Shown piece by piece: positions 15,648-46,208 of a stretch of 64,000 nucleotides of DNA. Source of the stretch: Agarophyton chilense. Lineage: Eukaryota > Rhodophyta > Florideophyceae > Gracilariales > Gracilariaceae. The DNA lies in NCBI GenBank assembly GCA_030374765.1, contig JARGXX010000138.1:1178001-1242000 (forward strand), read 5' to 3'. The stretch's first letter is position 1, and the number at the start of each line of letters is the position of its first letter. The position numbers and the translations under genes were made by a program. Under the pieces are notes generated by a model. That model saw only the letters and a list, made by a program, of their open reading frames with translations, did not search any database and was not told the origin of the DNA.

Positions 15648-16416
15648 ATGAACCCATACGTCATCAACCCACTCTCGGGGCCATCGTCCTCCGCGCCGGC
15701 GGACAACGAAGCTCCCCAGCAGGGTGGAGATTTCTCCGATGCTACGGACCATCATGCGTCAGATCGACCTTGTCCCAGCGTTGGGTTCGGCCAACAACGT
15801 GCAGGACCTGTATCCAATCTTGGACGTGATCGACAACACCCAATGGGATCGAGTTCCAGTGGCAAATCAGCCCGCAGGGGAAGGATCCGCGCGAGACAAG
15901 TCTCCTGGCCGGTACGATCCGGGCTCCGGTAAATGGGTCTATTACAATCCCTTCGAAGGGGTTCGCATCAGCGCGGCGCAAGCACGGGCGCTGATTGACT
16001 CGCCTCGACCGATGCCGGTAGGACACCCGACGGGGTTCATTTATACCGATGATTACGAGTACGAGCCTCCAGTAGACCTGGACGATCCAGCGTTGGATAA
16101 CGAAGTGCCAGCTCCTAGTGGAGTACTCCCTGTGGAGCCATCTGCACCCTTCCAACCAGTGGGAACGACCTGAGCTGCAGCGGCGAATGCATCCGGTGGC
16201 GGTCCATCTGCTCCCCCCGGGTGGGGTGTGAACACCCTTGCGCAGGCGCCGGTTGCCACTCCGCAAGCGGATAGTGTGCGACAAGGCCTCGTGAACGCAG
16301 GCATTCCGATTCCCCCGGGTATGACGGATGTGAGCCAGATGTTGGCTTTCGCCTCGGCGTTCCATCAGGGTCAGAATCCCAGCGGTGGGGCGGGTCCCTC
16401 CACGGGCTTCCCGTAG
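15648..16416 (+). CDS. Antisense ORF of element A (env-position, unknown family)
   Basis: This ORF lies between the 3' LTR and the chromodomain, opposite in strand to gag. It starts MNPYVINPLSG in one frame, shifts by one base near 15745, and continues to 16416 through one in-frame stop at 16171-16173, giving about 255 codons. Recognisable landmarks are WVYYNPFEG, PRPMPVGHPTGFI and, near the end, NAGIPIPPG followed by QMLAFAS. The same landmarks occur in the antisense ORF of element B (VWYDPW, PRAMPPTQPSGYI, DAGIPLHL..QMLNLLR) and partly in C. It has no known domain, signal peptide or membrane segment. The frameshift and stop mean this copy is probably not functional. Similarity was judged by eye only. 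Confidence 0.55.
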
Positions 16417-16474
16417 TTCCGCCTTCGGGCAATTGTGGAGTCCATAGCTTGGCGACAATAGTTAACTTCTGATA

Positions 16475-16650
16475 TTTGCATAACTTCTTTTCTTCTTCCT
16501 CCCTAGGATCTTAACTTCTACTTCATCTTCTTCATTCCTTCTTAGGATCTTTTTCATCTTCGTCTTCATCTTCTTCCCTTCCTAGGGTCCAATCTTCTTC
16601 TTAATCTTCTTCTCCACTTCGTGGGTCTTCTTTTCCTTTTTCATTATAAA
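16475..16650. repeat. Pyrimidine-rich (CTT)-like tract of element A
   Basis: About 175 bp, almost only C and T on the plus strand with CTTCTT repeats, lying between the convergent ends of the antisense ORF and the chromodomain frame. Element B has a GAA-rich tract at the equivalent place (44367-44520); in both, the gag-pol strand is the purine strand. Confidence 0.7.
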
Positions 16651-16817
16651 CTGTCCCGATAACCGGTGTTGTGTTCCCCGGTTAATGGCGCTAGGCCGAG
16701 GGCCAGTAGACATTCCCTCTCAATACGTGTTCTTCGGGATACTCTCCTCAATTCCTCTTCAGAGGTCCAACATCTTCCTCACTTCGAGGTCGCATCCACA
16801 ACAGTTCCCGTGGTGGC

Positions 16818-17108
16818 TTACCCGACTTGGGCACGATCCAGACTTGGAGGCAAGGTTACCCGAGCGCGTCGGTGATAGGATAAAACCTTAGACATCGGAA
16901 GGTGCTCAATGGGTTCCACTGTATTCTCATCAGGCGAGAATCCGTACCATCGGACTTGGTAGCGAACTTCTCCCTCGGGGGTGTAGATGTGACGCACGAT
17001 GCGATCGATAACGAATTCCTGCGGGTACACTTTTCCCTGTTCGGGCTTCTCTTCCCTCTTGGAACGCTCTAGTTCCCTTGAGGGTGTCAACGTAGGGTCT
17101 AGACACAC
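16818..17108 (-). CDS. Chromodomain remnant of element A
   Basis: The frame begins MCLDPTLTPSRELERSK and contains a clear chromodomain: FVIDRIVRHIY, then VRYQVRWYGFSPDENTVEP, then a closing helix LPMSKVLSYHRRARV. In chromoviruses this domain sits at the C terminus of integrase and is thought to direct insertion to particular chromatin. Here no integrase zinc finger or DDE core precedes it. Between 17108 and 17633 only frames of unclear meaning are found. It is either a leftover of an internal deletion of pol or a retained targeting module. Confidence 0.8.
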   Translation of the reverse strand: MCLDPTLTPSRELERSKREEKPEQGKVYPQEFVIDRIVRHIYTPEGEVRYQVRWYGFSPDENTVEPIEHLPMSKVLSYHRRARVTLPPSLDRAQVG

Positions 17109-17632
17109 CCCGGTGGGCTCTTTTCCGTGTTGCGAGCGGGTCTCAGCACTTCGTCCAAACGGCGCCGAGTGGCCTGTGGGCTACGTTGTAACTTCCGTCT
17201 ACGGAGTCAAAACGGCCCATCTTGGGTTCTTCTTAAAGCTGAGATTTTCCCGATAACAACGGTGTTCTTAGATTCCGTGACGGTTGAGAAACCGCGACGC
17301 GGTAGCGTCTCCAATCTCAGGGGGGTAAGACTTCAACGTCAACCCGAGCTACGGGGACGAAGGTTGCTCCCGTGCAACGCGCCGTGCGACGGAGGCGGTT
17401 TGCGCGACGGTTGGTCGTCAGAGCCTTTTGATTGGCTCGGTGCCATTCGACGTGTGCCACACAAATGCGCGGGCGCCCCGTGTGGGGTGACTGTTCCTTG
17501 TGCGGGAAAATCTGCCTATGCGGATGTGAGGTGGCGCTTTCGACACGCGCTAGCACTCTCCTGAGCTGTCCCTGACGGGTCTCTCTCATTTCTTTCCCAT
17601 TCCTTAGGGTTCCAGTGTCTCCATAGGAGTTC

Positions 17633-18142
17633 CTATTCCCATTCCATAACGGAGAGCCAAATTTGGTCGACCTCGTCGTCGAGATCTTCCCCGTGCGGGT
17701 CCGCTGACACAGCTCGTTCCCGAGAAAGCAAGGTTTGAGTGTGCGAAACCTCAGTGTCTCTTCCGCGGCGGCGGGTGATCGTCGGCTCTGTAGGCGTTCC
17801 GGGTGCGGAGTTCTCCACACGACTTTCCCTAGGCGGGTTTTCGTCATCTTTTCTGACGTCGTGCTCGGCTGGGTCGGCGGTGATGTCGCTACCCATACGC
17901 TGGGGTTGAGACTTCTCTGTCGCCGGCTCGGTCGGGCTCGCCGTCTCACTGTGAGAACTAGATTCCCTGTCAGGGCGACTGGCTGACGCCGAAACATCGT
18001 CCTGCGAAGGAACTAAGTCCTCCTCCCCCTCCTTAGGCGGAGAGCCAGGAGGCTTGACTACCTCCGGTGGGGGAGTAACTCTGTAAGAGTTCGTTGACTG
18101 GGCCCTTGAGGGAGCGGGCCCAGGTTCGGGAGTATCCGAAGT
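17633..18142 (-). CDS. Acidic/Pro-rich extension in frame with gag of element A
   Basis: After the gag stop codon (TAA at 18145-18143) the same frame stays open for about 170 codons to 17633. It begins TSDTPEPGPAP and is rich in Pro, Ser, Glu and Asp (for example GDLDDE-like acidic runs near its end). It has no protease motif. It could be reached by readthrough of the single stop, or it could be the remains of a longer gag that acquired a stop. Which is correct cannot be told from sequence. Confidence 0.5.
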   Translation of the reverse strand, partial: TSDTPEPGPAPSRAQSTNSYRVTPPPEVVKPPGSPPKEGEEDLVPSQDDVSASASRPDRESSSHSETASPTEPATEKSQPQRMGSDITADPAEHDVRKDDENPPRESRVENSAPGTPTEPTITRRRGRDTEVSHTQTLLSRERAVSADPHGEDLDDEVDQIWLSVMEWE

Positions 18143-20173
18143 TTAGTTTTTCGAAGCGGACCCCACCGAATTCGGTGCAGCTGCCTCGAAGGGGACCTGT
18201 TGTTCCCCGTTCGCGGGTACAAGTTCTGTATCCCTGTCAGCAAGGTGAGCTCGGAGTATCCTTTCTTCCTCATAGGACCTACTCGGGACTCGAGCTTTCT
18301 CCTCAGGGGTCAGAGCCTCGTACTGAGCGATAATTCGTGAACCCTCCCCCAGGGGAAATGTGCAGTCTGGTGCTTTGTGACCACGGAGGTAACACAAATA
18401 GCAAATCAGCTCTGCCGGGTTCGGTTGTGGACGTGAATCCACGCGACGTGGTGCTGTATCCCTCCATCCGGGGCGAGTAAACCGAGCAGCGGTATTCGCT
18501 ACAGGTAGCGATGCGGCTGGCACCCTCCGTCCGTGGGTATAGAGCGCAGGGTCTTCATCCGTAGTCGGAGCGGATGTCGACGGCGACTCAGACGTACCCA
18601 TAGATTCGGGGTTACTTCCCATGAAGTGAATGTTATCATTGACCCCCACAGGGGTAGGGCCTCCTGCGAGTGACAAAGACGAGTTACCTCCAGCGGCGAG
18701 GAGTGCACTTGTCGGCCGACTCTTTCGGTTCTGCCGGGCACGGAGAGTATCCCCCTCAGCCTGGGCGTACTGAACCAATTCCAAGTAGGTCAGCTTGCGC
18801 TTCTCTTCCCGATGTCGGGCAACCAATGCCCTTATCGAGGGGTCCAAACCATCCACAAACATGGAGCATCTCTCGTAGGCGGGGAATACATTCCCGCATC
18901 GGTGAAAAGCTTTATTCAAGCGAGTTGAATACACCGTTTCGGTTTCCATCGGCTTCTGCAGCGTATCCCTTAATGCAAGGATTGCTTCCTGAATCGCATT
19001 TCCAGTAGCGTATGACCTCAAGAGGTACTGCACCGCTTCGGGCCAGCACGTGACTCCCCCTTCCGAGGCTCGGGATGATCCACGGACGGAGTTGAACTGG
19101 TCTTCAGCCATCCCCTTTAAGAAATAGGGTAATGCAAGATACGCTTGCGCTTTACTCATACCGAGGATTTCAGCCTCCTGCACGAACCTCGCAAGGAAAT
19201 CGAGCACCAGAATTGGGTCTGTTTCTGTGAACTCCCTCTTTTGTAGGGTGATGCTCAGCCTTTTGATGTAGTCCTTGACCTTACCCGTTCCGCGGGATGT
19301 TCGATCTCCCGAAGGGTTATCCAACCGGTAATAGCGGTACGATAGCAGCTTCCGATAGAGAGGATTCGTCGGTTTCAGCTCCCTTAATCCAAGGTGTTTT
19401 CTACCCTTCTTCCGTGTACGGATTGCCCCTTGAGAGGTGTAAGTAGCCTTCGACCGAGTCGCCCGGGATGACCGGCGTCCATCTTCACTATCCGAAGATT
19501 CGGAGGACGAACTCGATGAAGAGCGATTGGGATCGGAATCCGATAAATCCTCTTGGAGGTGAACGCTCTTCTTTGACTTGCGGCGGTCCCGTTTAGCGGA
19601 GCGGTGTTCTTCGTCTTCCGAAACGTCGGGTTTATCCTTCGAGGCTTCTGTGTCTCCGTCCATACGGATAATGGCCTCGAGGGTGTCCAGCCGAGCTCGG
19701 AAGCGTTCCGCTTGCACGCGGTGTTCCTCCACGAGGCTCCGGTACTCCTGGATAAAGACCCCAGGGGTACCAAAGCTTTCCAAAAGGGAGTTCACATCCC
19801 TCCTCAGGGTACGAAGGTCATCGGCGACTCCCCGCACCTGGGCGTCCTCCACCTTGAGGCGGAGGGTAGTAACCTCCTGAAGGAGCTCGATGTGAGCCGC
19901 GTTGGCGATATCAATTTGAGTCTCCAGGCGCTGTAATTCAGGGTCGGCCCGACTTCGGGGTGCTGCTGAGGGGGTCTCCACCACTGGAGCTGGGCCCACA
20001 GCCACGACCTCTCGAGGACCTGAAACCAATGAGGGTGCTCTCCGAGTGTCCGGATCGATACCGGAATCGTTCCGATCTTCGGGAATTGAGCTCCTCGACC
20101 TAGGCGGGGCCGGGGGCACTGAATCCGCTTGACGGTTCGATCCAGTCCTGGAACCACGGGTAGGCGGCGTCAT
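18143..20173 (-). CDS. gag: Gag of element A, intact 676 codons
   Basis: Uninterrupted from ATG at 20173 to TAA. The N-terminal third is Pro/Ser-rich and then coiled-coil like (RLETQIDIANAAHIELLQ to SLLESFG). A charged Ser-rich segment (LSDSDPNRSSSS, ESSDSEDG) follows. Next is the capsid-like core with KDYIKRLSITL, ILGMSKAQAYLALPYF, AVQYLLRSYATGN and MFVDGLDPSIRALVARHREE. The nucleocapsid zinc knuckle is CYLCYLRGHKAPDC (Cx2Cx4Hx4C, about residues 591-604). The same core is found in element B (37705-38205). It would form the particle of a non-autonomous element, supplied with enzymes in trans. It is the only undamaged gag in the window. Confidence 0.9.
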   Translation of the reverse strand: MTPPTRGSRTGSNRQADSVPPAPPRSRSSIPEDRNDSGIDPDTRRAPSLVSGPREVVAVGPAPVVETPSAAPRSRADPELQRLETQIDIANAAHIELLQEVTTLRLKVEDAQVRGVADDLRTLRRDVNSLLESFGTPGVFIQEYRSLVEEHRVQAERFRARLDTLEAIIRMDGDTEASKDKPDVSEDEEHRSAKRDRRKSKKSVHLQEDLSDSDPNRSSSSSSSESSDSEDGRRSSRATRSKATYTSQGAIRTRKKGRKHLGLRELKPTNPLYRKLLSYRYYRLDNPSGDRTSRGTGKVKDYIKRLSITLQKREFTETDPILVLDFLARFVQEAEILGMSKAQAYLALPYFLKGMAEDQFNSVRGSSRASEGGVTCWPEAVQYLLRSYATGNAIQEAILALRDTLQKPMETETVYSTRLNKAFHRCGNVFPAYERCSMFVDGLDPSIRALVARHREEKRKLTYLELVQYAQAEGDTLRARQNRKSRPTSALLAAGGNSSLSLAGGPTPVGVNDNIHFMGSNPESMGTSESPSTSAPTTDEDPALYTHGRRVPAASLPVANTAARFTRPGWRDTAPRRVDSRPQPNPAELICYLCYLRGHKAPDCTFPLGEGSRIIAQYEALTPEEKARVPSRSYEEERILRAHLADRDTELVPANGEQQVPFEAAAPNSVGSASKN

Positions 20174-20382
20174 GCTGCAGACACGACACCGACGATTCGG
20201 GGTAACGATGAAATTCGATCACGAGATTCCCGGAGAACAGATGACCTAACACAAAACAAAAATAAAAACCAATTCCACCCTTTCCCAAGGGGACCACTAC
20301 AACAAATCTTCACGACGGTGCTTCCTCTTCCAAGAGATATTCCAACACGTGGATGACCAACCCAAAAGTCCGAGAACGGATT

Positions 20383-20398
20383 CTAAGTCCGGAGACCA
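20383..20398 (-). promoter_or_regulatory. Primer-binding site of element A
   Basis: Reads TGGTCTCCGGACTTAG on the minus strand, 2 bp inside the 5' LTR. It begins with TGG, the complement of tRNA CCA. Elements B and C have closely similar sites. Confidence 0.7.
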
Positions 20399-20400
20399 CT

Positions 20401-21313
20401 TGTGGAGCAAAACCCGGCGACGGGAAGTGCTCTCCAGGTGTTCGAAGCCTTGCTCCCTGGGGAAGGCAGACTCAGAGACAGAGCCCTCCGTTCCACCCGT
20501 AGTGTGGGGTATAACTCCCACGGGGGATTCCGGCAGTACCGACGGAGGTGAGGGGTAGAAACCGTGGATCGGGAATGGGTATGGGTATCCCAAAGAATGG
20601 GGGAAAATCCGGCGAAGAGGAAAAACGGGGCGAGGGTCGGGCACTAACAGGCACCGGACCCAAGAACCAGAAAAGGGGCGAAAAAACAAAAGAAACCCAA
20701 TACAGGGGCGAAAACCTGTCCTCGAAAGGAAACACAAAAAGCACGCAACAAGTAAACAGAACCCCCACGGGGTATCGTGCACGCAGGTAGTCTGAGCGGT
20801 CCCAAGGGGGTGGTTGCACGGAACCCAAACGTGGGCACTCTCCAAGTGGAGTCGTGTCCCTACGCAGGCGTTGCTAACCAGAGTCCGTTCCGGGTTGTAA
20901 GGCCGAAACGATGGCGACGAAGAACCTCTAAAGGTATCGAAGACCAACCTTGCTTGTCATTTACTCTGAGGTCGGACTGTCAGATCTCGCCTCCCTAAGT
21001 AGAGCCCACTAACTAAACTCTACAGTAGTGCACACCTGCTCAGGGCCATACACGTGGAGATCCCACTGACAGGGCCCAAAAATCCAACGTTCTAACAAAT
21101 ATCCGAAATTCGGCGCCAAAATTAAGCCACGTGTATCACGGGGCCAATCCAACCATGGGCCATCCGAATTTTCCCTTATAGGCGAAATATAACCAGAAAA
21201 CAGTGCCACCTCAGCACACCTTAGAGGGGATCATAATCATAACCTTCGGAGGGTTCAATCCTCATTCTATGAGTTGCATCTTCAAGTATCCCCTGACTGG
21301 GCGTTGCTCTACA
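20401..21313 (-). repeat. 5' LTR of element A
   Basis: Partner of 14524-15437, same orientation, with the same TGTAGAG..CTCCACA ends. Confidence 0.9.
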
Positions 21314-21845
21314 TTAGCCATGGTCTTAACAGCCTTGGTCTCAATTTTTGCAGTGAAGGAGTCTCGCGTTGAGCGATTAGCCTCGGAGAACACGGCATCG
21401 TTGCTTTGCTCCACTAAGAAGGACATTTGCTTAGCCATGTCCATTCTGTGCTTCATAATGTTCTTGAAGTACTGTGCGCGAATCGTCAGCAAATAGGGTA
21501 CAGCGTTCATCGCTTCCTCGGCGAGGGCGAGGCGTCCGGCGAGGTCTTCTGGATTCCCACCTTCTACCTTTTCCATTATCAGCGCTGTGATGGCCATGTC
21601 AGTCCATACACCGGCGGCGTTGAAATACTCTCATTCCATAGCCTATCTTCGGTTCTTACTCTTGAGGGTTGTACGGAAGGCATGAACTGGCGGCTTCAAG
21701 ATCGCCATGTGGGTCGCAAGGTCATGGGGTCCTCGACCAAAGATACATCCTCCACTCACTAGCGACAGGGTGTTGATCTCTTGACCAGCCTCCGCGTATT
21801 GCTTGCGCTGCGGTTTGGCTGTCGCCCACGGTTCATCTTAGACTC
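21314..21845 (-). pseudogene. Gag-like ORF remnant (possibly DIRS-type) cut by element A
   Basis: On the minus strand, an ATG at 21845 opens a basic N-terminal segment (MNRGRQPKPQRKQYAEAG). The frame then runs, with two stops, through a helical segment EDLAGRLALAEEAMNAVPYLL and HRMDMAKQMSFLVEQS until it meets the LTR of element A. It lies directly downstream of repeat R1. The helical, basic make-up suits a retroelement gag. The presence of a DIRS-type pol tail on the far side of A suggests, without proof, that both come from one DIRS-like element. Confidence 0.4.
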
Positions 21846-25893: not shown

Positions 25894-25900
25894 CATATTT

Positions 25901-26646: not shown

Positions 26647-27091
26647 TCTAACGCCATGATGGGTGGGTCAGCGCACGGGTCTCGACCTTTGTAGCGTGGT
26701 AGAGCGGGTCCTAAGGTTTTAATCGTTGACGGCGGCACTTCTAGAGTTCTTGGTGCAGTGGGCTGGCGTATACTGCGTAGTACTACAGGTTGGAACTATG
26801 GAAACGATGGCTTGAAGACCAATTGGCGGAATTAATATACCAAAGGGGGTTGTTTAGTATCCTAACGCTGCCTACCTTATTCAAAGTGAGAAGCATCACT
26901 CGAGGCACGTAACTAGTACTGGCGAGGCGCTGGAATCTCCCTGGCACTGTAATGCTAATCAATTGCACTAATTAAAAAAAATTAATAATCTACATGAGTC
27001 CACCTGAGGTCGACCCGTCGACGTGTCACCTCTAAGATACCTCAGGGCCTGGCGGCTTACATAGCCCAACCGTTATCCTCGCTCCTTCACA
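26647..27091 (-). repeat. 3' LTR of element C
   Basis: 445 bp, starting TGTGAAGGAGCG on the minus strand. It is matched by the solo LTR at 39970-40413 and the truncated 5' LTR at 47702-47979. A purine run on the minus strand (AAGGGAGGGAGA, about 27093-27106) precedes it as polypurine tract. Confidence 0.85.
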
Positions 27092-27282: not shown

Positions 27283-29607
27283 ATGGTACTCCCACGCGCC
27301 GTAAGTGTGGGCCATAGGTGCATCATCGGCGCATTCTTCGCGTCGCGTTGCCGAGACGGTCCATTGGCTCCTTTTCCTCTGACGGACATTGGGGCCTTTC
27401 TTAGTCTCCGTTCTTCCTTTGGAGACCCTCCGCGCTTCATCCACCGTGATTCACGCCTGGTAGTCCGCTCGGGTCAATTCCGTCACTCGCCTTCCCATCG
27501 TGGTTCTTTTACATTGGTCTCGCGCGATGCCGAACTCACCTTTAAGCCCGTCGGATACGCCGTTCTCCATTCGGACTATGTCGCTTTCGTCGGCTTTCCT
27601 ATCCATTTGCCAGCAGACCAGCCTGTGGCCAGCGGCACCATGGCTTGAAAAAAACAAGCGGGGAGCTCCTCGGGATACCAAATGGCCTACGAACGTCTCC
27701 ATGACTGCTATGACTATACCATCGGACGAAACCCGTGGGCAGTGCGTCACGCCATTCTTCCATTCTCTGTAGACTAATACAAAAGTGTTTTCCATATGTA
27801 TCTCGACGCCCGAAGGTTCGCGAAGATACCCGATTTCCGGACGGGCAGCAAGAACGCCCGCGGCGTCTTGTGGTACAAATGGTCGTTACGTTGTCCTGTG
27901 GATCCGCGTTCTGCGACGCGCTGTCGCACCATCATCTAAGCGGACATGCCGTACGTCGGCTGCGAGGAGGATGCCGAGTTCCAGTTCACGGTGAAAAAAT
28001 TCCTTTCGGACCTATACACGCACTTCATCTCGCCTCATGTCAAATTTTCTTCGGCGGCTTACAACCTCTTGGCGCTCATGTGATTTCGACCGCCGTATGA
28101 CCGCCTGTTATGGATGTCCAAAAGGGTCATTTGGAACAAGATGCATGAGCCCGATGGTTGTTTGCGTCAATCCTTGGGGTTCTTCTTTTTTTGGCACCGG
28201 GTGGAGTTTCACGACATGAGCGCAGACAAACGTCTTCCGTTATTTCTTTCGCTTCCCCACGAGGATGACAACCAATGGGCCATGTATTGGCGTGTCTCGA
28301 CCCTCCCTTTGGTTCCCACGCCGTCTGTGGTGGCGTATCACTCGTCCAAACTCATGGGCGATGACAATGACCGAAGGTCGGGGCTGTCCTGGCAGGTACT
28401 CCTCGTTGAGCTCGGCGTGATGTCCCTTATGGCCTTCTTGGATACCGTAAAGTACGGAATCCGTGGTAATGTCCGTTCAGAGGATTGGAGGGTATGGTAC
28501 GACGAGAACATACCCGGTCCTGAAAGTCACCTAATCCTGCTCCCGGACATCATGATCCGTTTCCTAAGGAACCTGGGAATCCAGAATATCGTCCGTGGGA
28601 CCCAGTTCGACGTCGATGAGAACGGGGCCCTTTTGGATCATGTCCTACAGGTGGAATGGGGCAAGGCTCCCGGGTTCCTTTGGTATGACCATGATACCGA
28701 CTCATTCACGGCGATTCCGCTACGTCTGCAGGGTCGAGACAACTCTCGTGTCTATCCCTCAATGCCTTTGAGGAATCAACCATCGGACATCCCGATGCGT
28801 CATGTGCCCGACTATTATCCGAAGGCCATTGGGTTTGGTCCCCTGCGCTTTAAGCCTGATGTGGAAGCCACGCCATTGGTTCCTGCTGATATGTCCGATT
28901 GAGAATCCTTCGGTGAAGATCCCTTCTTCCTACCCGTAGAGGGCGGTAATCCTCCGGTCGAGTGCCCTGTGGTGTTGCCGACCACTTCCCCTTCTTCAGC
29001 TCCTCCGGGCGCTGCTCCTCAGAATGAGCTTTCTTATGAGCCGCCCCTCTCCCAGGTGTACATCCCTCCTGGCGAGGTTACTGTCGATGCCGGAAGTCCT
29101 GTAGGTAGTGCGCTGGCTCAAAAGTCCACTGGGGGCGTCGACATCGCTCCGTTCTCTCCGTTTCCACACTTTCCCGCTTCGGTCATGGCTGCGGCTTCGG
29201 ATCTCCGTCATTTTTGCTGTACCGTTGGTATTACGGCCTCGATTGACATTGCAACAGTTCTGAGAGAAGCTTGCGCTTGGGCGCGTCGCTCGGCGCGCTA
29301 TGCTGCGGTTGTCCAAAAATGTCAGGATTTAAAGACCGCCATGGTCAATATCCTGCAGCAGAATGCCCAAGTGAGGTTTCAGAGGGTTACTGCCGACTTG
29401 GATGTCCCATATGTTCTAAATTTGAGGGAGAAAGAGGCTGGCAATGGTATCACTAGTTCCTCAGGTGAATTTCCGCCGAAGAAGCGTGTTCGGCTCGCTG
29501 GGGCCGGTCCTAGTGGTCCAGTTGGCTCATCGGGTGACCTTAGTCCGGGTTTCGCTCCTGAAGGTTCCAATGAGAACGAAGGAGATACTGCTGCGCCGCC
29601 CCAGTGA
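27283..29607 (+). pseudogene. Antisense ORF of element C (env-position, unknown family), about 775 codons
   Basis: One reading frame runs from ATG at 27283 to TGA at 29607. It is interrupted only by five in-frame stops (near 27646, 27772, 27940, 28081 and 28900), with no frameshift needed. It lies on the strand opposite to gag-pol, between chromodomain and 3' LTR. The middle segment (28114-28902) is open for 262 codons, with GLSWQVL, EDWRVWYDE, FLWYDHDTD and PSMPLRNQPSDI. The last part (28969-29607) is Pro/Ser-rich at first and then helical (ATVLREACAWARRSARY). GLSWQVL matches GIPWHVL of the B copy, and the WYD and MPxxxxPS landmarks match A and B. No known domain, signal peptide or membrane helix. 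Such length without frameshift implies past selection on the protein. Confidence 0.6.
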
Positions 29608-31829: not shown

Positions 31830-32117
31830 CTAGGTTATCTCGTAGTCATATTTTGACAGCCTGCGGCGCCACCTAGCGAGGCGACATGATGCATCGGTCA
31901 TATTGAGAACCCAGCGGATCGATTTTTGGTCTGTCCTGATGGTAAACCTGGTTCCCTCGAGGTAAGGACGGAGTGTCAATACGGACCATACGATGGCTAG
32001 ACATTCGTTTTCGGTAGTATTGTAGTTTCGCTCCGCGCTGGTGAGCGTTTTGCTCCAATATCCAATAGGTCGATGGTCCTTCGGTGACTCCTGTTCCTGT
32101 AGCAGTGCACATTCCAC
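31830..32117 (-). pseudogene. RNase H domain of element C
   Basis: Contains IGYWSKTLTSAERNYNTTENECLA and RTDQKSIRWVLN, the typical gypsy RNase H landmarks, and continues with RWRRRLSKYDYEI. It is separated from RT by stops around 32155. Confidence 0.8.
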
Positions 32118-34285: not shown

Positions 34286-35588
34286 TTACTGTGCCCTGTT
34301 TAACATTCCTTCGGATCTCCGCACTCGGTAATTCTCTTCCCTGAGGGCTAGGAGGTTTTTTCGTGCGTCCTCAGGTAGATATCTCGTGCAGTCACAAGTT
34401 AGAGCCATGGAAAGGCAGAGGAAGCAAGCCCTTGGGGCCCGAACAAAAACGTCCTTGCGGGGCGGAAAGGGAGAATACTTGCGCGTGGATGGTTTGGTGG
34501 TCACTGTAGTTACCTGGGAGCTATATGATGGGGGTCCGGACGGAGGGGCACTGAAATGGACCGGGAGGGCATCTCCCGAATCGGCGTAATGGTGTGATGC
34601 ATCCATGTACGATTCCGTGGAGCTAACCAAATTGGCTTGGTTGGGTTTACGCAATGGAGTTACGTGTCCCCTGGATAAGTCAGCATTCCGCCTGGAAGTA
34701 CTGTAGGGTTTGCCATAACCTTCGGCATAAGTAACGGGCCTTTGGAAGGAGCATTGTGGGTTTCCCGTGTGGCTATTGCGGACATTTGTCCGAATGGCAG
34801 GGAGTAATCCTGTGATGAAGTGACATTTGAGCCGTATTTCGGAGAATACATTTTTACATCGGTAAGGCTTTTTCCATAGGTCGTCTGCTAAAGTCGATTC
34901 GGTCATGTTAGAGCTCTGCGTAAAAGAGATTGCTTCCTGGTGGGCATCAATTATAATGTCATCCGTGGCGTAAGTTTCCAAGAGGTAATGAACAATCTGA
35001 GGGTATGACCTGAGGAGCTCACAGTCCTGAGCATCAACGAGGTCAGTTGTGACAGATATCTTCAAAACCACTCGGTCACGCGCCTATCCTGTAAGGAAGA
35101 ATTGGAAAAGGTACAGAGCGTCGCCCTAGTGGACACTGTTCTGATCGCAGGCTGTACGGAACAAACTGGGAAATCTAAGGACAGCAATGGAATCGGAACC
35201 CGAGAACTTGTCCGTAATGGTTAGTTGCATCCGTTTGGCCCATTTTGCGACTCTGCGAGCCACCGAACTAAAATATTTCGGGGACCTGTCGGGCAGCCGA
35301 TAATTCCGGTAGTCTAGAACCTTGAGGAAAAGCTCTTTATTTGTTTTTAGTGGTCTGAGACCTCAAACGGCAGCCTCTTCCACTTCCGAGTCGATCGTTT
35401 TGGTTGAGGCTGATTCGGAATTACTCGTGTCCGAATGGTCTCTTCTTTTGCTTCTTCTGTTCTTCTTTCTCCTGCGGTTACTTCTTTTCTCTCCAGCGGA
35501 ATATGAACCTGAAGGAATGATCTCTCTATCAGATACGATGGAGCCCTGAGGTCGCTGTACCTCATACTGTCCTTTGGGTAAGGTAGTC
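34286..35588 (-). pseudogene. gag: Gag of element C, C-terminal part
   Basis: Contains a charged KR/Ser-rich segment, then LLRSYPQIVHYLLETYATDD, which corresponds to AVQYLLRSYATGN of element A gag. A corrupted zinc-knuckle region (ACFLCLSMALTCDC) follows. There are stops near 35085 and 35342. It is cut at 35588 by the 5' LTR of element B and resumes at 47159. Confidence 0.75.
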
Positions 35589-36361
35589 TGTAGCATTCTG
35601 TATGCAATTGAGTTTGACCGATCGAAACACTACGAAGTCGCGATACGGCATTCATAAGCTATTGCTTGGGCTATACTCGATTACGAGAAGTTATGAGAAG
35701 AATGACTTCATGGAAAGGTTGGGACAGGAGAAACTTAATTAGGAAGTACTGTACTTAGTGTACACTGTAAGGTGCAATCACCAAATATTACATTTGGTAT
35801 TATTTAGATAATTGTGTATTGGCATGTCACTTGTATGCCTTACTGTACGGTACTTGCTTTGCCTCTTGGCACATTAAAGGGCACAAGGCCCAGGTGAGGA
35901 CGGCAAAGGCCAACCAACAACCACCAACGAACCAAAACACCATCTTGGTGAGTCCTAAAAATCCTAAAGTGGTTTACCAAAAGGGGTACCTATAGTATCA
36001 GTTCTTCACCGTTCTGAGCTATAGCTCTTGTTTCGAAGATACCCTCTACTGTTGCGCGTTTACCGCCCCTTTTCTACAGCTTTCTGTGTGTGTTTGTGTT
36101 GTTTTCTCTGCTCTCACCTGGTTATTTGTGTTTTCAAAAGGGATGTCGAGCCGATCTCGTTTGCATTACGTACCACCGCATCTGGACATCCGCTTCGTGA
36201 ACACAAGTATTTCCCCCATTGTTAAGGCACACCTGGCTGCTTTCCGCACACTCTCTTTTTATCTAAGAACCGTTGCTTGCAAGGCTACACCCGCTCTTCG
36301 CGGTTATTTCTGTGGATGACCACTGCACTGAGACCTATACAGTCTTCAATAAAATACAACA
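35589..36361 (+). repeat. 5' LTR of element B
   Basis: Matches 46385-47158 throughout, with many more differences than between the LTRs of element A, pointing to an older insertion than A. Confidence 0.85.
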
Positions 36362-36366
36362 TAAAT

Positions 36367-36382
36367 TGGTCTCCCGATTTAG
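36367..36382 (+). promoter_or_regulatory. Primer-binding site of element B
   Basis: TGGTCTCCCGATTTAG, 5 bp inside the LTR. It differs by one base from the site of element C (TGGTCTCCCGACTTAG) and by two from that of A. Confidence 0.7.
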
Positions 36383-36745
36383 AAAGAAGTACACCTGTGT
36401 TTGGGATATTTGTCGCTTTGACCGTAAATATCTTGTTTCGCACGTTCGAATGATCCTCGTTGGATTCCCGTGCGTTGTTGTGAAATCAGTGAACTGAAGC
36501 TTGAACCGTCATCATGGACTCTACATTGAGAGAAGACGTTTGGAACCGGATCTAACCGTTCGACACGTTCGCCGGTCAACCCGAGTATTAGTTGTGATTC
36601 TTCACTGTTTGTTGGTTCTATTTGCTAGAAGTTTCTATCGTTTTCGATATTGGTTGTAACGATCGCGATATATGTTGTTCTCTTTGAGAATTTTGTTTAC
36701 GTCGTCCGCATTTGTTATCTGGATTGTCTGTGATAATTTTCCGCC

Positions 36746-38757
36746 ATGCAGACGAGAAGCCGACCAGATTTGGATAGAAGCGAGTCCGCGGCACCCCGCT
36801 GAGCCACCTCTACAGAGGCCGGCAACCGCCTATATCGTCATGCGAAGAAGAAGTCGAAATAGACAGGAAGCGTAATTGCACCTTCGGAGGTTCCGACGAC
36901 GATCGCTCTCCAGGCTACTACCTCATCTAAACGTGATATCACGGAAGGTGCAGCCTCCCGAGCTGAACTACAGCAACTCCGTGCGGAATCTGCGACGCAG
37001 AAGTTCCGTCTGGAGGAGATGGAAGGTCAAGTTAACTTCTTAAAATCGTCATTAGAGACGTTAAGAAGAGAGAACATGGCTCTGGAGAATCAAAATCTAG
37101 ACACAAATCGGATGGCCGAGATTGTTCGGACAATCCGAGAAGATCTAAATCAATTGTTAGAAGAGAAAAAAATGCGATAGGGGCCTTACCACCTATACCA
37201 GTTACTGTTGAAGTGACCCTCTCACGTGCAAAACCTCGCTTAGAGCGATTGGAGACTGTGGAGAATGCACCGTTGCAAACTCCGCACCCGGAAGTACAGG
37301 AGGTGGGACCCATCGTTGCTGATGAGTGGTCGCGCAAGAAAGATTCGAAGAGGTCAGAGGTACAGAAGTTATCTTCAAGATGCTCTAAATCGAGAAAACT
37401 CGCCAGAAGACATGACACCGATGGAGACGGAGATGATTCCGATTATACGGATTCCGATAGTTCGGATACGGACGATCCCGAGAAGAAAAGTTCATCTTCT
37501 GATGACAACTCGAGCGAAAAGGACACTTTCTGCTCGAGAAAGAAAAGAATTGGTAGCTCACTACTGTCCCGCAAGAAGGGACCGCCTACAAGAATCTGAA
37601 ACCGCTTTGGTGTACGAAACCGCTTTACAGGAAGGTTACAAAATAATCGTGTATATCGGCTCAAGGTCCAAAAGGGAAAGCGAACAGGTCGCGAGACAGC
37701 CAAAGTGAGAGATCACATTAAGCGTTTGAAGAGTGCCCTCGATGGTCTTACTTTTTCTGGGAAGGATCCCATTCGTATATTTGAATTTCTCAATCGCTTT
37801 GTAGTCGTAGCCGACACGCTGGGGATGAGTGAAGCTCAAGCATCCGTGGCACTCCCATGCTTATTGGTTGGATTTCCAATGGAGCAATACCATGCCATAA
37901 GTGGTTCACTTACCACTGATGAAGGTGGAGTCACCAGTTGGGCCGAAACCGTGCAGTACTTTCTGCGTAGTTACGCAACGTCTAATGCAATTCTTGAAGC
38001 TATTCTGAATCTCATAGATATTTCCCAAAAGCCTGGAGAAAAGGAGGTTGAGTACAGTTCAAGACTGAATAATGCAGCTACACGCTGTGGAAATGTCCTT
38101 TCTACGGACGAGAAGATGACACTTTTTGTCGATGGACTCAATCCGACTATCAAGTCATTGTTATCCCGTCATCGGGAGAAGCACTCGAGAATCAGTTTTC
38201 TGTAATTAGTGCAGTATGCCCAGGCTGAACGTGAAGCAGTTCGCGCTCGTCGCGGAAGTGGAACACGTCATTTAGGGACATACCGTGTTGCTAACAGGGA
38301 TATAAAACGCCCTATCAAGCGAGGCAAGGTTTTGCGTCTGGAGTTGCCAGAGGAATCACGCGTTTCGACGTTTACGTCTCATGATGACAGCTATACTGGA
38401 GAAGACGCAGTTAATTATCTGGATGATCCAGAGGGGTCAGTGCCTACTACAGATTTGCCGTTAACTGATTCCCGTGTGGAAGATGATATATTGGATATGG
38501 GGCCACGCCGTTATCCTTACAGTAGGAGTCCGATGGTCCCGCCAGCGGATGGATGTACTTCTTAGAAGTCTGGTTGGGTAGATACCCGTGGTACAGAGCA
38601 GCCACAGCTGAGGTTGAACAGGGATGGCCTGATATGTTATGGGTGCTATGGAAGACATCATTTGTCATCGGAGTGCACTTTGCGCTTTACACAGGTACAT
38701 CGAGTTGTCTCGAACTTTGAAGCTCTCCCGGAGCCAGAACGAACCCGTGCCCCCTGA
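36746..38757 (+). pseudogene. gag: Gag of element B, frameshifted
   Basis: ATG at 36746 (MQTRSRPDLDRSE). Two early stops precede a coiled coil (ELQQLRAESATQKFRLEEME to MAEIVRTIREDLNQLLEE). Next come a charged Asp/Ser segment and the capsid-like core 37705-38205 (RDHIKRLKSALDGL, LGMSEAQASVALPCLL, TVQYFLRSYATSN, LFVDGLNPTIKSLLSRHREK), clearly homologous to element A. The zinc knuckle is CYGCYGRHHLSSEC (Cx2Cx4Hx4C) near 38632-38673. The frame is broken several times. Confidence 0.8.
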
Positions 38758-38933
38758 CAATCATATTGGAAGGCCAACGCATGGGTACTTGCGGATATGA
38801 TACGCAAAACTCATGCGAGAGCTAAGAACTCTGAAAGATCACAGGGTTCAGCCCCAGAAGTACAGAGGGACGCCGATGTGGCGAGGGAGAAACCCGCGTC
38901 ATCGGGAAACTAAGTGAGGGAGCCTTCAGGGGT

Positions 38934-39944
38934 TTGGGTGGATTCAAACCCACCATACCGATCGGGATACCGACCTTGCCCCGCTCCCGGGAGTTTAAAC
39001 CGAAGGTACTACAGAGACAAGGAAGATTTTCGAACGTCGGAAACTATGTACAGTTGGACTGTATATTGAAGCGTCCTTGGAGACGATATATGTGCCCAAG
39101 TAGGAGGACGAGTCACGTCATGATTATGGCCCGAAGGAACTACAAGGTCTATGACAACGTCGGCTCTTCTCAAGCGCTGTTATCGCGAAGCCTCGCTTTA
39201 TTGGATACGGTTGCAGACCTGAACTTTATCAGGTTGTCTGAATTGGGCAAAGAAGAGAGAGCTTGAATACAACAGGCACAGATACCGGATATCCGGGACG
39301 CGAACAAAAGACCTATAAAGTCTATTGGAACAGTACGGCTTGTCGTTCGCTTGAGAAATAATGTTGGCATGTTAACTTTTATTGTATGTATCACATTGGC
39401 TGCACGATTTGTGCTGGGTTGTGACTACTGTGACAAGTTTTTCGAATCGATTTGTCCGAAGATTCGGGAAGTGGAGCTGGACGATGGCTCTACAGTGCCA
39501 ATCGTGCGCAGACCTCTGCAGCGATCCGCTTCATTTGCACCATTACCACCGTCATTAGAATACGAAGCAACACTGGGCATAACATCTCAGAAGATTTCGG
39601 TGTGTACAATAACAGGGATACCACGAAAAAGTGAACCATGGGTATCAGTCGTTACTGAGAAGCACGGACCTATCCTTATTCAGCCGAACGTGGCACTGTA
39701 TCACACTAGTGAATTGCTAGTTGCTAACGGCATTGCACAGCTGAGCCCGAAGATCCCTTTCAGGATATTGGTGAGAAATGTTGGCTTGGAAGATCGTCGC
39801 TTACACAGGCAGCAGCTCTTGGGCATGGCGCTGCCACACCCTTCAGTTGTGATACCGACACACATAATGACGGCAGACTTCTTAGGAGTAACGTCCACAG
39901 GCGAGCAGAAGGTGACAGCGACAGAAGCGGTCGGGAACATGTAG
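38934..39944 (+). pseudogene. Protease region of element B
   Basis: One frame with a single stop at 39264-39266. The active-site block reads ALLDTVADLNFI, where retropepsins have D-T-G-A, so the catalytic loop is altered. The C-terminal extension (VVTEKHGPILIQPN, TADFLGVTSTGEQ) parallels that in element C. It is followed directly by the solo LTR insertion. Confidence 0.6.
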
Positions 39945-39969
39945 AACATGAAGGAAGAGAATGTCTCTG

Positions 39970-40413
39970 TGTGAAGGAGCGGTGATAACGGTTGAGCCCT
40001 GTAAGCCAATGGGACCTGAAGGATCTTGCAGGTGACACGTGTACGGGTCGACCTCAGGTGGACTCATGTAGTTTTTTCTAATGTAATTAGTGTAATAGAT
40101 TAACAATACAGTGCCAGGGGGATCTCAGAGCCTGGCCAGTACTACTTACTTGGCTCGAGTGACGCTTCTCGCTTAGAGTACGGTAGGCACCGTTAGGATT
40201 CTAAATAACCCATTTTGGTATATTTGTTCCACCGTTTGGTCTTCAAACCATCGTTTTCATAGCTCCAACCTGTAGGACTACGCAGTAAACGCCAGCCCAT
40301 TGCATCAATTACTTTGGGAGTGCCGCCGTCAAGGATTCGAACCTTAGAACCCGCTCTACCACGCTACCACCGGTCGAGACCCGTACACTGACTTAACCCG
40401 TCATTGCGTTACA
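39970..40413 (+). repeat. Solo LTR of C family inserted between protease and RT of element B
   Basis: 444 bp, from TGTGAAGGAGCG to GCGTTACA, flanked on both sides by CTCTG (39965-39969 and 40414-40418), a perfect 5-bp target-site duplication. It matches the LTRs at 26647-27091 and 47702-47979. It arose by insertion of a C-family element and recombination between its LTRs. Confidence 0.9.
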
Positions 40414-41274
40414 CTCTGAAGAAGAGATGGAAGAAGCCCTCCAGGGCGTGAAAATGGAACAAGTTCCTGAGGATTATAAATGAAGATTGCGCATATTGCT
40501 GCTGAAGTTTTGACATATGTGGAGTGGACACATTGGCTAGATAGCGGCTACAGAACATCATATTGACGTTGTACCGGGTACAAGACCCATCGCTCAATTA
40601 CCGTATCGGGCAGGCCCCCGAACTCGTCAGATCGAGCAAGAACACGTGGAATCCATGTTGGAAAAGGGATTCATTCAGCCAGCTCAATCAGCTTGGGCAT
40701 CCCCAGTGGTCCTTCTTCTCAAATGAGATAATCCTTTACGCTTTGCGTTGACTAAAGAAAACTGATTGCAGTAACTGTGAGGGATACGTACCCATTACTG
40801 CGTATGGATGAATGCATCGATATTCTTGGGGAAGCCAATGTTTTTACTACGCTTGACGCAAATTGGGGATACTGGTAGATACCAGTCGCCCCAGAAGACC
40901 AAGATAAGACTAGATTTGCGTTTCACGCAGGACTGTATCGCTCTAAGCGAATTCCATCTGGTTTGACCAACGCCCCTGCGACTTTTCAGCGTGCCATCGA
41001 TATAATACTATCACAGTACACGTGGAAAACATGTCTTGTTTACTTGGGTGACATCATCATTTTCAGTAAGAATATGGAAGAAAATTTTGGGAATGTTCAG
41101 GGAATCCTCGAGAAGTTACAGCAAGCTGGAATTACCTTGAAGATTAAGAAGTGTGAATGGTTCACTGACCAAGTGAAATACCTGGGGCACAGGACAAAGA
41201 CAGGGAAACTGGAAATGGAAGAAGTGCAGACCGCTGCGATTCATGAGTCCAAACCTCCGCGAACGCAGACGTAA
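40414..41274 (+). pseudogene. Reverse transcriptase of element B
   Basis: Frameshifted at first (QLPYRAGPRTRQIEQEHVES, GFIQPAQSAWASPVVLLLK). Then comes an open part from 40963 with NAPATFQRAIDIILSQ and the active-site box LVYLGDIIIFS, where YLDD has become YLGD. The loss of a catalytic Asp predicts no activity. KYLGHRTKTGKL closes the domain. Confidence 0.85.
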
Positions 41275-41860
41275 TTGAGATCCATTCTCTGACTTTGTAA
41301 CGTCTACAGACGATTTGTGCCGCGCTAATCCCATATCGCTGCACCTCTTAATGTATTATTGAAGAAGGGAGAACTCGTTCAATTGAAGGAATTCGGAGAA
41401 GCCGAAACGGAAGCTATCGCAAAGCTAAAACACGTGCTGACCACAGCTCCTGTGTTACCTATTCCGAAAACGGATCTTCCTTACTCCGTCGATACGGACG
41501 CTAGCGATTATCAGATAGGGTATGCCCTTTTTCAAACGCACGAAGACGGCATACGGCATCCTACTGGATACTGGTCGAGAAAACTGCACCAGGCAGAAAA
41601 GAACTACTCTGTGTCAGAAAAAGAATGCCTTGCTATGGTTTGGGCTCTGACGACCCTCAGACCTTACCTACAGGGTGCGCACTTTAAGGTCAATACCGAG
41701 CCTCAGATGGCTCATATCGATTACCGACCCGTCGGGACGCTTAATGCGATGGCGTCTGCGCCTTTCAGAATTTGATTTCACAATCATCTACAAAAAGGGA
41801 ACTTCAAACGTACACGCCGACGCGTTACCGCGACTCGAAGCCTTGAGAGAAACCCAATTG
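41275..41860 (+). pseudogene. RNase H domain of element B
   Basis: SVDTDASDYQIGYALFQ, GYWSRKLHQAEKNYSVSEKE and LTTLRPYLQGAHFKVNTE are the standard gypsy RNase H blocks. After a shift the frame continues MRWRLRLSEFDFTIIYKKG and NVHADALPRLE, the normal end of RNase H. Confidence 0.85.
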
Positions 41861-42009
41861 GAAATCGATGATGAGATACCATGTTTGGTAACGGAAAATT
41901 CGAGAACGAAAGAAGAAGAACTAGAAGATCGAGAAGAGGAGGATTATCAAATGGAATTACTGGTAGCCCAGAGTTCGGACACTGATCCAGAAGATCAACT
42001 CGAACGAAT

Positions 42010-43185
42010 CTCTTTTGAAGAGCTATTACGTGAACAAGTCACAGATGCCCTCTGCGCGGCTATCCGCTCTCGTCTTAACGGGGGGGAGGTGTTGCCTTTT
42101 CGTTTCGACGATCGGTGAATCTTTGTTCGAACTAGTGAATCGAATGATCAAATCGTGATATCACACGCTCTCAAGAGCAGAGTACTGCATTTGGCACATT
42201 ATTCGCAAATGCCTGGTCATCCAGGAGGTACGAAGCTGTATCTAACCCTCAGAAGGGACTTTTATTGGCCAACTTTGGCAATGGATTGTCATGCGACAGC
42301 TAAGATGTGCGTAACGTGCGCGAGGAATCGAATGAAGCTCTGGAAAAAGAAGAAGCCAATGAAGCTGTTCCCAGCAATCGCACCTCTACAGTATGTCAGT
42401 ATTGACATACTTGGAGAATTGATCCGCTCGAAGCGAAGGAACTGATGCCTTTTGGTAATAACTGACCGCTTCTCTAAGCTGGTTAAGACTGTTCCCCTGA
42501 AACGGATTACTGCTTTTGTGATAGCACGAGCGTTTATCCACCATTCGGTTTACTACTACGGACCACCGGATACTCTGCTCTCAGATAATGGCAAGCAATT
42601 CGTTGCACGCTTCTTTCAAGATTTATGCAGGATACTTGGCTTTGAGAACGTGTTCACCACGACGTATCATCCGCAATGTAACAGGCAGGTGGAACGGTAC
42701 AACCGTACACTACTCACCGCGATTCGGCACTACATCGGAGAACACCCGAAGGACTGGGATCTAAATACAGACACGATTTGCTACGCGTACAGTATGCAAG
42801 TGCATTCGAAGACGAAGCTAACACCCTTTGAATTGGTAATATCTCGCCGACCAACGGCTTTGCCAATCAAGATAGATTCGGACAGAACCGAAGAAGAGTT
42901 AATGCCGACCACGGCTCAGTTTTACCTACGCTGGAGGAAGGAGTTGCGCAAACGCACTACGCAGGCTGCAAAAGAGATTGGAAAGACCCAAGTGCGCTAA
43001 AAGCGCAATTACTACGCGTCAATGAGACGAACACTCCCGGATATTCGAGTCGGAGGACACGTTTTCGTGAGAGTGGGAATGAAAGATAGCCGGAAGACTG
43101 GAGAGGACAAGTAACGGAAACGCGATCATAAGTTAGCGCCGATCGCTACAGGACCGCATGAAGTTGTCGAATTCGACGAATGTAC
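42010..43185 (+). pseudogene. Integrase of element B
   Basis: The zinc domain is intact: HYSQMPGHPGG and CVTCARNR. After a stop at 42443-42445, the catalytic core retains all three acidic residues: YVSIDILG, LLSDNGKQF and QVERYNRTL. The C-terminal GPY/F-like part (KLAPIATGPHEVVEF) is in another frame after stops near 43000 and 43112. It is less decayed than the integrase of C. Confidence 0.85.
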
Positions 43186-44008
43186 CGTGGTAATACGGAG
43201 AAGTACTGAGGTGGAGCGCATTTCTCGCGACCGAGTAGTTGGTGCACCAGACGGAGAAGCTGACTTACAGCGAGAGGAGTCCACACGTGGAGATATTGAG
43301 GTGCGGGAGCCACCACGGCCACTAGTTGTGCAGGACCTTGCTTACTTACCGCCGCAGGACAAAAGAATTCCAAAACTACCACGTGGTGAAAAGAGTTCGG
43401 AGATCCGGCTTACAGGGCTGCCCATGACATAATCATAGCTCCCACTGTAGCATTGAGAGGCGACACGGCGATCCGCACTGTGAGCGCGCAGCAAACTGCA
43501 GTCTCTCCCTCAAACCACGCGGTGGACGCGAAAGAAATTGAGTATGAAACCTCACGTATCAGAAGTAGTGAAAGCTCTACAGGGAGTCGGGATGACAGAA
43601 CAGAATCGCTATTTGGCGTAGAATCAGAAGGAACCGAAGCTTAGATCAGCAAGCCAATTCTGCAAAACGGATTGAAGAGTGTAACTCTCCCTGAGGAGCG
43701 CAGCAGGTCTCAAGAAAAGAAAAAGTCCAGAAGAGACTCCGCAGTTGTGGAGACGCCACATGAAGACAGTATGACTGTATGGGCTGACCCATTTGCGGCG
43801 GATACCGAGCATTTGAGGCGACCCCCAGAACGTCCGGACACCTTAAATCCAGAAGAGAAGAAGCCCAACGGGGCAAGCCTAAGGCGAACAGTGGCAACTA
43901 AAGTCGCGTTTTCGCCGCAAGGTTCAGAAAACCCGAGAAGGAAGTTGGAAGCGCCCGCCAGACAGGAAAGATATAGGGAAACCAGAAGACTGGCTTTGAG
44001 AGCCCCGG
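43186..44008 (+). pseudogene. Integrase-chromodomain linker of element B
   Basis: Polar, charged frames (43187-43432, 43453-43644, 43672-44079) with Arg/Glu-rich composition and no domain. They join the GPY/F region to the chromodomain, with shifts and stops between. Confidence 0.5.
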
Positions 44009-44356
44009 ATGTGGATGAGACGAGAGAACGTGATGACACGATTTCCGAACGCTATAGCGAACGCTACGGAACCTGTTGACAAGAGTGTCACCCCGAATGA
44101 GGGTTCCGTAACTAAGGAGATGGAATACATCATCGAACGCATTATAGATCATGGATGGCATGCGAAGGACAACAGTTTACTGTTTAAAGTGCGTTGGTAT
44201 GGGTATCAACCTGAAGACGATACATGAGAGCCCATTCGCAATCTACCACGATCACACGTGCTCGCGTACTGCCGACGTGCTAAACTGGGTGTCCCAGACA
44301 CTATTGATGACGCTCTCGTCGGTTGGGTTGTGTCAGGAGAGCCAGATGGAATCTGA
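44009..44356 (+). pseudogene. Chromodomain of element B
   Basis: MEYIIERIIDHGWHAKDNSL, then FKVRWYGYQPEDDT, a stop at 44225-44227 in place of the conserved Trp, then EPIRNLPRSHVLAYCRRAKLG. It matches the chromodomain of A in layout and is the predicted targeting module at the integrase C terminus. Confidence 0.85.
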
Positions 44357-44366
44357 CCCCTACAGA

Positions 44367-44520
44367 AGTATGGAGTAACTCCAGGAGGAGGAAGAAATAA
44401 GTGGAGGTCCACAAGAATTGAGAAGTGAAGCAAGAAGAAAAGAGGCCTCGCAGAAAGAAGAACAAGCAAAGAAGGAGCAGAAGATCAAAGCGTTTCATTT
44501 TGGTTCTCTCAAAACCCAGC
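44367..44520. repeat. Purine-rich (GAA-like) tract of element B
   Basis: About 150 bp, mostly A and G on the plus strand, between the end of the chromodomain frame and the end of the antisense ORF. It sits in the same place as the CTT-like tract of element A. Confidence 0.6.
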
Positions 44521-44557
44521 GCTAGTCGGTTTGTGACAGTGCCCTCAGGCAAGAAAG

Positions 44558-46208
44558 TTAAAGATTCGGGTTTTCCGAGTTGATATCCATCGAGGAGCGC
44601 AAGAGATTCAGCATCTGCTGTCGATTTCCTTGAACAAGGTGCAGAGGAATCCCAGCGTCTTCGAGGAATTGCGTCAGATTTCCAAGCTCGGCATCGTGGG
44701 AAGCCACTGCGGGTCGAACATGCTCAGGTACAGCGCTGTGCATCGCTACAGGGACCACTGGCTCTATGTCGTCGTTCTCACAAAAAGCGGGATTCTCGAG
44801 GATGACCTCTTCTGGCTCTTCGTCGTAATCGATTTCTTGCATCTCGTCAACGAGTGCGTCGCCATTCTGAGCAGTTGCCTCGTGTATGTAACCACTCGGC
44901 TGGGTTGGAGGCATTGCTCGCGGAGTTTCCCGCAGAACTTTAGCGCAATCGCCGTCCATATGCTGGTTGGTCCAGGGGTCGTACCAGACACAGTCACTGC
45001 CGGGACCGGTTCTTCCGGGTGATTAGTCGCGACGAGGACGTTCTCTAGCCTGCTATTCAGAAGGAACAAGGGTCCAGTCAATCTAATCAATGACATTCAT
45101 CAGGCGCATAAATTCTTCGTGGTTGGCACGTGAGTCTAGGACGAGCGATAGATCGAGTTCTCCCGCAAATTGTCGAGCAATCAGGCTCATATACCACAAA
45201 CGATATGTGTCGCATACATCCCAGAGGATGAACACGGCCATCTTCGCGATGAATTTACTGTAGACGTCTACACAATTACCGGAAAACGTATCATCCGCGA
45301 GTGAGGAACCTACGTAGGTGATTGAAGGAGGGAGCTCCACAGTACAGCCACGCGGACTCTCGATCTCATGCCAGTATTGAGGAATCGGCACGTAGCGCCC
45401 GACGCGCGAGCTATACCGGATTCGGTCCACTTCGAGCATATGGTATGGAACCAAGTATCCCAGTCGAGATCTGGTACGGCGTTCCCACCGGGAGAATTAC
45501 AAATACGGATTATCCCGTTTGCGGAGAAAGCGGAATTCCGCGCGTAAGTGAGGACTGTCGGAACAGAGGGCCCCGTGGGATACTCCACGAACACCGCGCC
45601 ACCTTTGGATATCCAAAGCCGCTAGGTACTCGACATACGAGTAGGCCTCGCCATTTGTTCTGGCACACCAGGTATCGAATTGCCAATCCTCATTGAGAGG
45701 CACCGAGTCGATAGTGCGGCGTAATCGCTGGTACACCAGACGGGTGAATCGTTCTCACGCCTCGAGCAAGCTCTCGTTTCCGAAGCGACTGATCTCATTG
45801 TATAAGACGACGCAATGGCTCAACCAATCTGTTTTAAACAACACATGCCATGGGATGCCATCGGAAAGGCGACCTGTGACGAAATACTGATCATCAGAGC
45901 TTCGTCGCAGACCGCCGCAGGGAAAGACCAAGGCGCTCGCGCGTATAATGCAGAGTGCTGCAGGGGGTCTCGGCCGACGAAGTCCGCGTAATGTGGGAAC
46001 CTCTGTACGGAGGAAGACGCAGGTTGCAGAACAGCTGCTGTGGAGGAAAGGTATGCAGGACCAGGACTGGAAGCCGATTGCGGCAAAGGACAGTTGGGGA
46101 GAGTGGAGCGGAACCTCTAGGCGGCGCAGAAGTCTGCCGAAATGGAGGGTTGTCTACATCGCCATAGGACGTCGGTGGATTGACCATGTAAGACGGAAGG
46201 TTGCTCAT
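44558..46208 (-). pseudogene. Antisense ORF of element B (env-position, unknown family), about 550 codons
   Basis: Starts MSNLPSYMVNPPTSYGDVDN at 46208 on the minus strand and ends at 44558, with several frameshifts and stops. Landmarks in order are: VTGRLSDGIPWHVLFKTDWL (matches the GLSWQVL block of C), NEDWQFDTWC, PIPQYWHEIESPRG, VWYDPWTNQ, PRAMPPTQPSGYI, EIDYDEEPEEV and DAGIPLHL..QMLNLLRSSM. The last four align with the antisense ORF of A. It is longer than that of A and shorter than that of C. No recognised domain, signal peptide or membrane helix. Position between pol and 3' LTR is where env-like or accessory ORFs sit, but here the strand is reversed. Confidence 0.6.

Follow-up and report, generated by a model that had tools for sequence, protein, structure and literature searches.

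What does a long terminal repeat (LTR) retrotransposon gain from a gene that runs against all of its others? The question is raised by a 64,000-nucleotide stretch of the genome of the gracilariacean red alga Agarophyton chilense (GenBank assembly GCA_030374765.1, contig JARGXX010000138.1, positions 1,178,001 to 1,242,000; hereafter the window), which holds three Ty3/gypsy elements, termed A, B and C, each with one antisense gene between pol and the 3′ LTR. Do these open reading frames (ORFs) encode a protein that selection has kept, do they form one family, and what might such a protein do? The antisense ORF is a protein-coding gene under protein-level selection, and we favor, with moderate confidence, the reading that it is a native accessory gene of a chromodomain-bearing red-algal Ty3/gypsy lineage and encodes a trans-acting nuclear regulator.

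First, the coding status of the gene is written in the substitutions that separate its copies. When the ratio of nonsynonymous to synonymous substitution rates (dN/dS) was computed for all six frames, the antisense frame gave the lowest value in each of three sets: 0.37 among C copies (28 pairs; 0.37 stops per 100 codons), 0.64 among B copies (253 pairs; 0.81 stops), and 0.14 between B-like and B copies (0.00 stops), the last from the three of six pairs that were computable, with dS near saturation. The runner-up, the frame whose third positions coincide with those of the antisense frame, followed at 0.47, 0.70, and 0.32 and was interrupted by stops at 3.2 to 4.0 per 100 codons. Copies were identified by their antisense-frame matches, a selection that in part accounts for the scarcity of stops in this frame but not for its pattern of substitutions. 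Full A copies gave 0.39 to 0.46 (three pairs). Truncated A copies lie nearer neutrality (0.70, 435 pairs) and young B-like copies range from 0.60 to 0.92 (three pairs), values that weigh against the coding interpretation, although higher ratios within young groups are expected because most copies decay after insertion. The frame is also open in many other copies: 45 of the 76 best-scoring A-type copies (out of 1863 candidates) have no stop over 570–575 matched codons, a share that would be lower across all A-type copies since only the best-scoring ones were examined, and none of 2000 first-order Markov sequences stayed open. A preliminary description of this locus had named, as outcomes that would refute it, a dN/dS near 1 with the frame missing from other family members, or profiles with no significant match between the three ORFs; neither outcome was obtained.

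Second, the same description had claimed, by eye, that the three ORFs are related, and the claim holds, directly for A and B and by way of profile comparison for C. The A and B products share 33% identity over 152 amino acids in BLASTP (expectation value, E, 3e-15), a match confined to the antisense frame. Over 540 residues, full-length A-type copies agree with B-like ones at 34–35% of positions, and another subfamily, D (L077), shows 41% identity with A and 36% with B-like. Six A/B-type sequences have such core blocks as RAEFRYL, ERRxRSR, EVPRGC, and SPGR largely in common. Pairwise BLASTP with C was not significant (A–C, E 0.35; B–C, E 1.3). A profile–profile comparison of A/B against C, in contrast, scored 58.1 (probability 91.9, P 6.8e-7), whereas 240 shuffles of columns or blocks never exceeded 25.8 and the reversed profile reached 16.3; an A/B profile of other composition scored 55.9 (probability 89.3), and a hidden Markov model of A/B run over the six frames of the window found C as its best match outside A and B (E 0.008 for the sequence, 0.037 for the domain). 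The link to C weakens when A-like or B-like rows are used alone (probability 56 and 75), which tells against a single family; we place C in the family, but less confidently than A, B, and D. Among the short motifs that had suggested kinship, the WY-D/N block aligns in the profile alignment, as does AG(I/F)P of the A and B tail, opposite VGIT in C; the likeness between GIPWHVL (B) and GLSWQVL (C) dissolves, for their positions are not aligned, and the MP motif is weakened on the C side, being absent from seven other C sequences that cover that place (P0001–P0005, L006, L007). By eye, A has a GxGPS-like tail that recurs in some C copies and in several homologues. That the protein was kept while gag and pol diverged is borne out by identities of 48–59% (A–B) and 42% (A–C) in pol and of 40% (A–B) and 29% (A–C) in gag.

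Third, the gene occupies the same place in all three elements (Table 1). Each copy begins at a real ATG where first noted, about 210 bp (A), 177 bp (B), and 191 bp (C) inward of the 3′ LTR, and each lies, as had been described, at the env position, opposite to gag and pol, with the chromodomain region on one side and the 3′ LTR on the other. In A, B, B-like, and C elements the boundary of the LTR is marked, by eye, by a similar purine-tract complement, a run of pyrimidines and then TTAAG. Position opposite to gag–pol, between pol and the 3′ LTR, and conservation over many copies and several families make it an antisense additional ORF (aORF-3R). The genes are real, but the long ORFs first described are broken in all three window copies: A has lost about 950 bp and its reading frame, B carries seven in-frame stops among the 550 codons read, and C has stops as well. 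The gag, pol, and chromodomain regions were located by comparison with a copy of the A type from another part of the genome, in which pol runs reverse transcriptase (RT), RNase H, integrase, and then chromodomain; by that comparison element A is a derivative without RT, RNase H, and integrase. Chromodomains had been ascribed to all three elements. Those of A and B match PF00385, whereas the Pfam search found none in C, whose assignment is by similarity to A and B alone; the chromovirus arrangement, RT–RNase H–integrase with the chromodomain last, is accordingly seen in the order of the A-type copy and in the PF00385 matches of A and B, and in C by similarity only. Element B is probably nested within the minus-strand element C, and the LTR piece beyond it is probably the 5′ LTR of C. 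A third C-type LTR copy lies in inverse orientation at 39970–40411, within B and upstream of its RT, and Ty1/copia integrase and RT ORFs (rve, RVT_2) occur at 48144–50939, near the second C-type LTR piece.

Table 1. Elements A, B, and C and their parts, in window coordinates
Feature	Position	Strand	Remarks
Element A, Ty3/gypsy	14524..21314	−	LTRs 14524–15438 and 20401–21314, 915 bp, 97.4% identical
Element B, Ty3/gypsy	35589..47161	+	LTRs 35589–36364 and 46385–47161, 777 bp, 90.9% identical
C 3′ LTR	26649..27091	−	Edge set by eye at purine-tract complement near 27092
C-type LTR piece, second	47704..47979	−	86.6% identical to 26649–26923; beyond nested B
A gag ORF, 691 amino acids	18146..20218	−	Related to B gag, which matches Retrotrans_gag
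B gag	37633..38766	+	Retrotrans_gag, PF03732
C gag	34712..35362	−	
B pol, RT to integrase	40490..43267	+	Broken
C pol, RT to integrase	30318..33149	−	
A chromodomain region	16821..17174	−	PF00385, E 2.2e-8; 95.8% to A-type copy
B chromodomain region	44093..44323	+	PF00385, E 2.5e-8; 44% to A
C chromodomain-like region	29943..30104	−	31% to A over 54 amino acids, E 5.6e-5; similarity to B too
A antisense gene remnant	15648..16413	+	ATG 15648; about 30 codons, internal deletion that changes the frame, and 254 C-terminal codons interrupted by one stop
B antisense gene, decayed	44558..46208	−	ATG 46208; frameshift and stops
C antisense gene	27283..29607	+	ATG 27283; several in-frame stops; best stretch 28084–29604

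How widely has the gene spread, and does an element need a copy of its own? At least 149 scored places carry the A antisense gene (1522 first-look candidates), at least 85 that of B and B-like elements (1723 candidates), and at least 85 that of C (1115 candidates). At least 30 of the 49 scored A-type pol places have an opposite-strand antisense match no more than 4 kb downstream (median 1790 bp), of which 23 are labelled full and seven truncated, and among the matches listed none lies on the same strand within that distance. Not everything in these counts suits an indispensable gene: 19 of the 49 pol places have no antisense partner among the matches listed, and the truncated A form, as judged by match range, accounts for 42 of the 149 scored places. 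By the same measure this form appears to have the same internal deletion throughout, and some of its copies adjoin long pol matches. Since the truncated form is common, also beside pol, the protein is not strictly needed in cis, a point against the favored reading; that copies with a shortened gene have spread nevertheless fits a product supplied in trans. Relatives of the protein occur in Gracilariopsis chorda, annotated as hypothetical only, and in sources without a name, and the six proteins matching the C product are all from A. chilense; the A. chilense protein P0010 shares 90% identity with one of the genome's copies, much as B-like copies within the genome do with one another.

The protein itself, about 560–650 residues in the A/B/D type, offers few familiar landmarks. 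Neither Pfam, above its cut-off, nor NCBIfam matched the antisense proteins, and a sequence search of the PDB with the A/B-type profile gave no match. The weak structure models available agree in suggesting a core that is mostly helical, ends with little order, and a pair of helices at the C terminus; the tail is, by eye, largely acidic with a short helical hairpin.

By what mechanism might such a gene serve its element? The antisense gene and pol face each other tail to tail, and with its ATG some 180–210 bp inward of the 3′ LTR, the gene would be read from a separate antisense transcript starting in or slightly inward of that LTR. Its product would act in trans and in the nucleus, where it may tune transcription of the element or shield the element from host silencing, a regulatory role modeled on what has been proposed for such antisense genes in the plant Grande/Retand elements. 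The preliminary description had suggested either a countermeasure to silencing or a second product driven by a promoter in the 3′ LTR, and either may apply. A basic PP(K/T)KRxxL stretch, recognized by eye in six of the eight C copies, is consistent with nuclear import. Several observations speak against a nuclear regulator with its own transcript: a classical nuclear signal is, by eye, not clearly present in the A-type and B-like proteins; an alignment of 27 copies shows no conservation of a TATA-like site seen in B, and no promoter was identified; and the structure models are poor (mean predicted local distance difference test, 55 and 60), with no usable structural match. A bolder version, to which we assign a low probability, would make the protein a dedicated trans-acting silencing suppressor, or a chromatin guide working with the chromodomain, antisense-coded throughout the lineage, so that sense and antisense transcription together form a built-in switch on which non-autonomous copies depend.

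A regulator of gene expression is not the only nuclear role to be considered, since the protein might instead serve integration or pre-integration complexes together with the chromodomain, through targeting or through nuclear import of complementary DNA. That it accompanies chromodomain regions in all three elements (in C by similarity only), that six of eight C copies have the basic stretch, and that the A/B core has kept a basic RxRSR motif all favor this idea; the truncated A form, however, implies that the gene is dispensable in cis, even if supply in trans is possible, and no nuclease or DNA-binding match rose above the cut-off; we regard a role in integration as unlikely, if worth keeping in view. 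Considerably less probable is that the antisense transcript is itself the functional product, as double-stranded RNA or through interference with genomic RNA, and the ORF incidental. The gene complements the 3′ portion of the RNA that its element makes, and control by antisense RNA has been discussed in other retrotransposons (PMC7264820, in part), but an incidental ORF would hardly account for a codon-position pattern in which dN/dS is lowest precisely in the antisense reading frame, or for a protein conserved over A, B, and D although third positions are near saturation. Could the protein be an inverted envelope-like or particle-structural component, given its place between pol and the 3′ LTR? 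This seems slightly less probable again: it is encoded on the opposite strand, no Pfam match above cut-off was found, and the maximum 19-residue hydropathy of ten A/B/D-type proteins (0.78–1.54) reveals no strong transmembrane segment, so that this type is predicted, by hydropathy only, to be soluble, even though one of the two C proteins tested reaches 1.68, a value less comfortable for a soluble regulator. Least credible of these explanations is a host gene that the elements captured and carry as a passenger, for although capture is a known origin of extra retrotransposon ORFs (PMC7264820, in part), the antisense protein tracks the branching of gag and pol (A and B closer, C distant), and the protein searches, in which the genomic setting of the matches was not determined, named no characterized host homologue.

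Around the three elements the window holds further features. Two inverted 1515-bp copies at 3933–5447 and 51232–52746, 46 kb apart, are 98.6% identical; each contains a glycine-rich ORF with a secreted-like start by eye, and the one examined has no Pfam match. A second inverted repeat, with arms of about 950 bp that are 88% identical, lies at 5495–6437 and 24944–25894. An ORF at 1–663 resembles, by eye, the C-terminal part of a tyrosine recombinase, and one at 59055–60011 consists of repeated cysteine-rich units and looks secreted by eye; neither has a Pfam match. Host genes at 54619–56766 and 61876–62907 encode a CAP-domain protein, GTP cyclohydrolase I, and a cyclin.

Finally, the arrangement has precedents. 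Antisense accessory genes of LTR retrotransposons have been described in plants and in fungi (Boty), their function being given as not known in the consulted parts of the sources (PMC7264820; PMC11963269). Nearest in layout are the antisense ORFs of the plant Retand/Tat lineage with TRP28, and that of RIRE2, which likewise lie between pol and the 3′ LTR and, according to portions of the same sources, are kept across families and species. Retand, in which tandem arrays are common, is, however, a plant non-chromovirus, whereas the algal A and B, and an A-type copy from elsewhere in the genome, carry the chromodomain PF00385, and its antisense ORF contains TRP28 (PF04195), for which the algal proteins gave no match at E ≤ 1 (three proteins) or E ≤ 10 (nine proteins); a search of the genome for this domain was also without a match, its positive control being equally silent. 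Maize Grande is likened here by description only: its gene23, too, is an antisense accessory gene near the 3′ LTR, and the Grande antisense protein is reported to be nuclear and to have its own promoter (PMC7264820, in part). Boty of Botrytis cinerea and Sclerotinia sclerotiorum, compared on the same footing, places an antisense ORF between pol and the 3′ LTR outside plants (PMC7264820, in part). HBZ of human T-cell leukemia virus type 1 (HTLV-1) is likewise an antisense gene of an LTR element whose product is a nuclear regulator (PMC11963269, in part), but HTLV-1 is an infectious retrovirus and thus of another kind, and the algal protein lacks any Pfam match above cut-off that would connect the two. 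The arrangement, then, is already known from plants and Boty, while the protein family in the red-algal elements appears to be new. With many copies in a small genome (80 Mb), open and truncated forms side by side, the alga makes the need for the protein in cis or in trans, and antisense transcription itself, directly testable. A protein of no recognized relation at the same place in red-algal chromodomain elements suggests that the arrangement arose, or was kept, repeatedly, and that the position itself matters.

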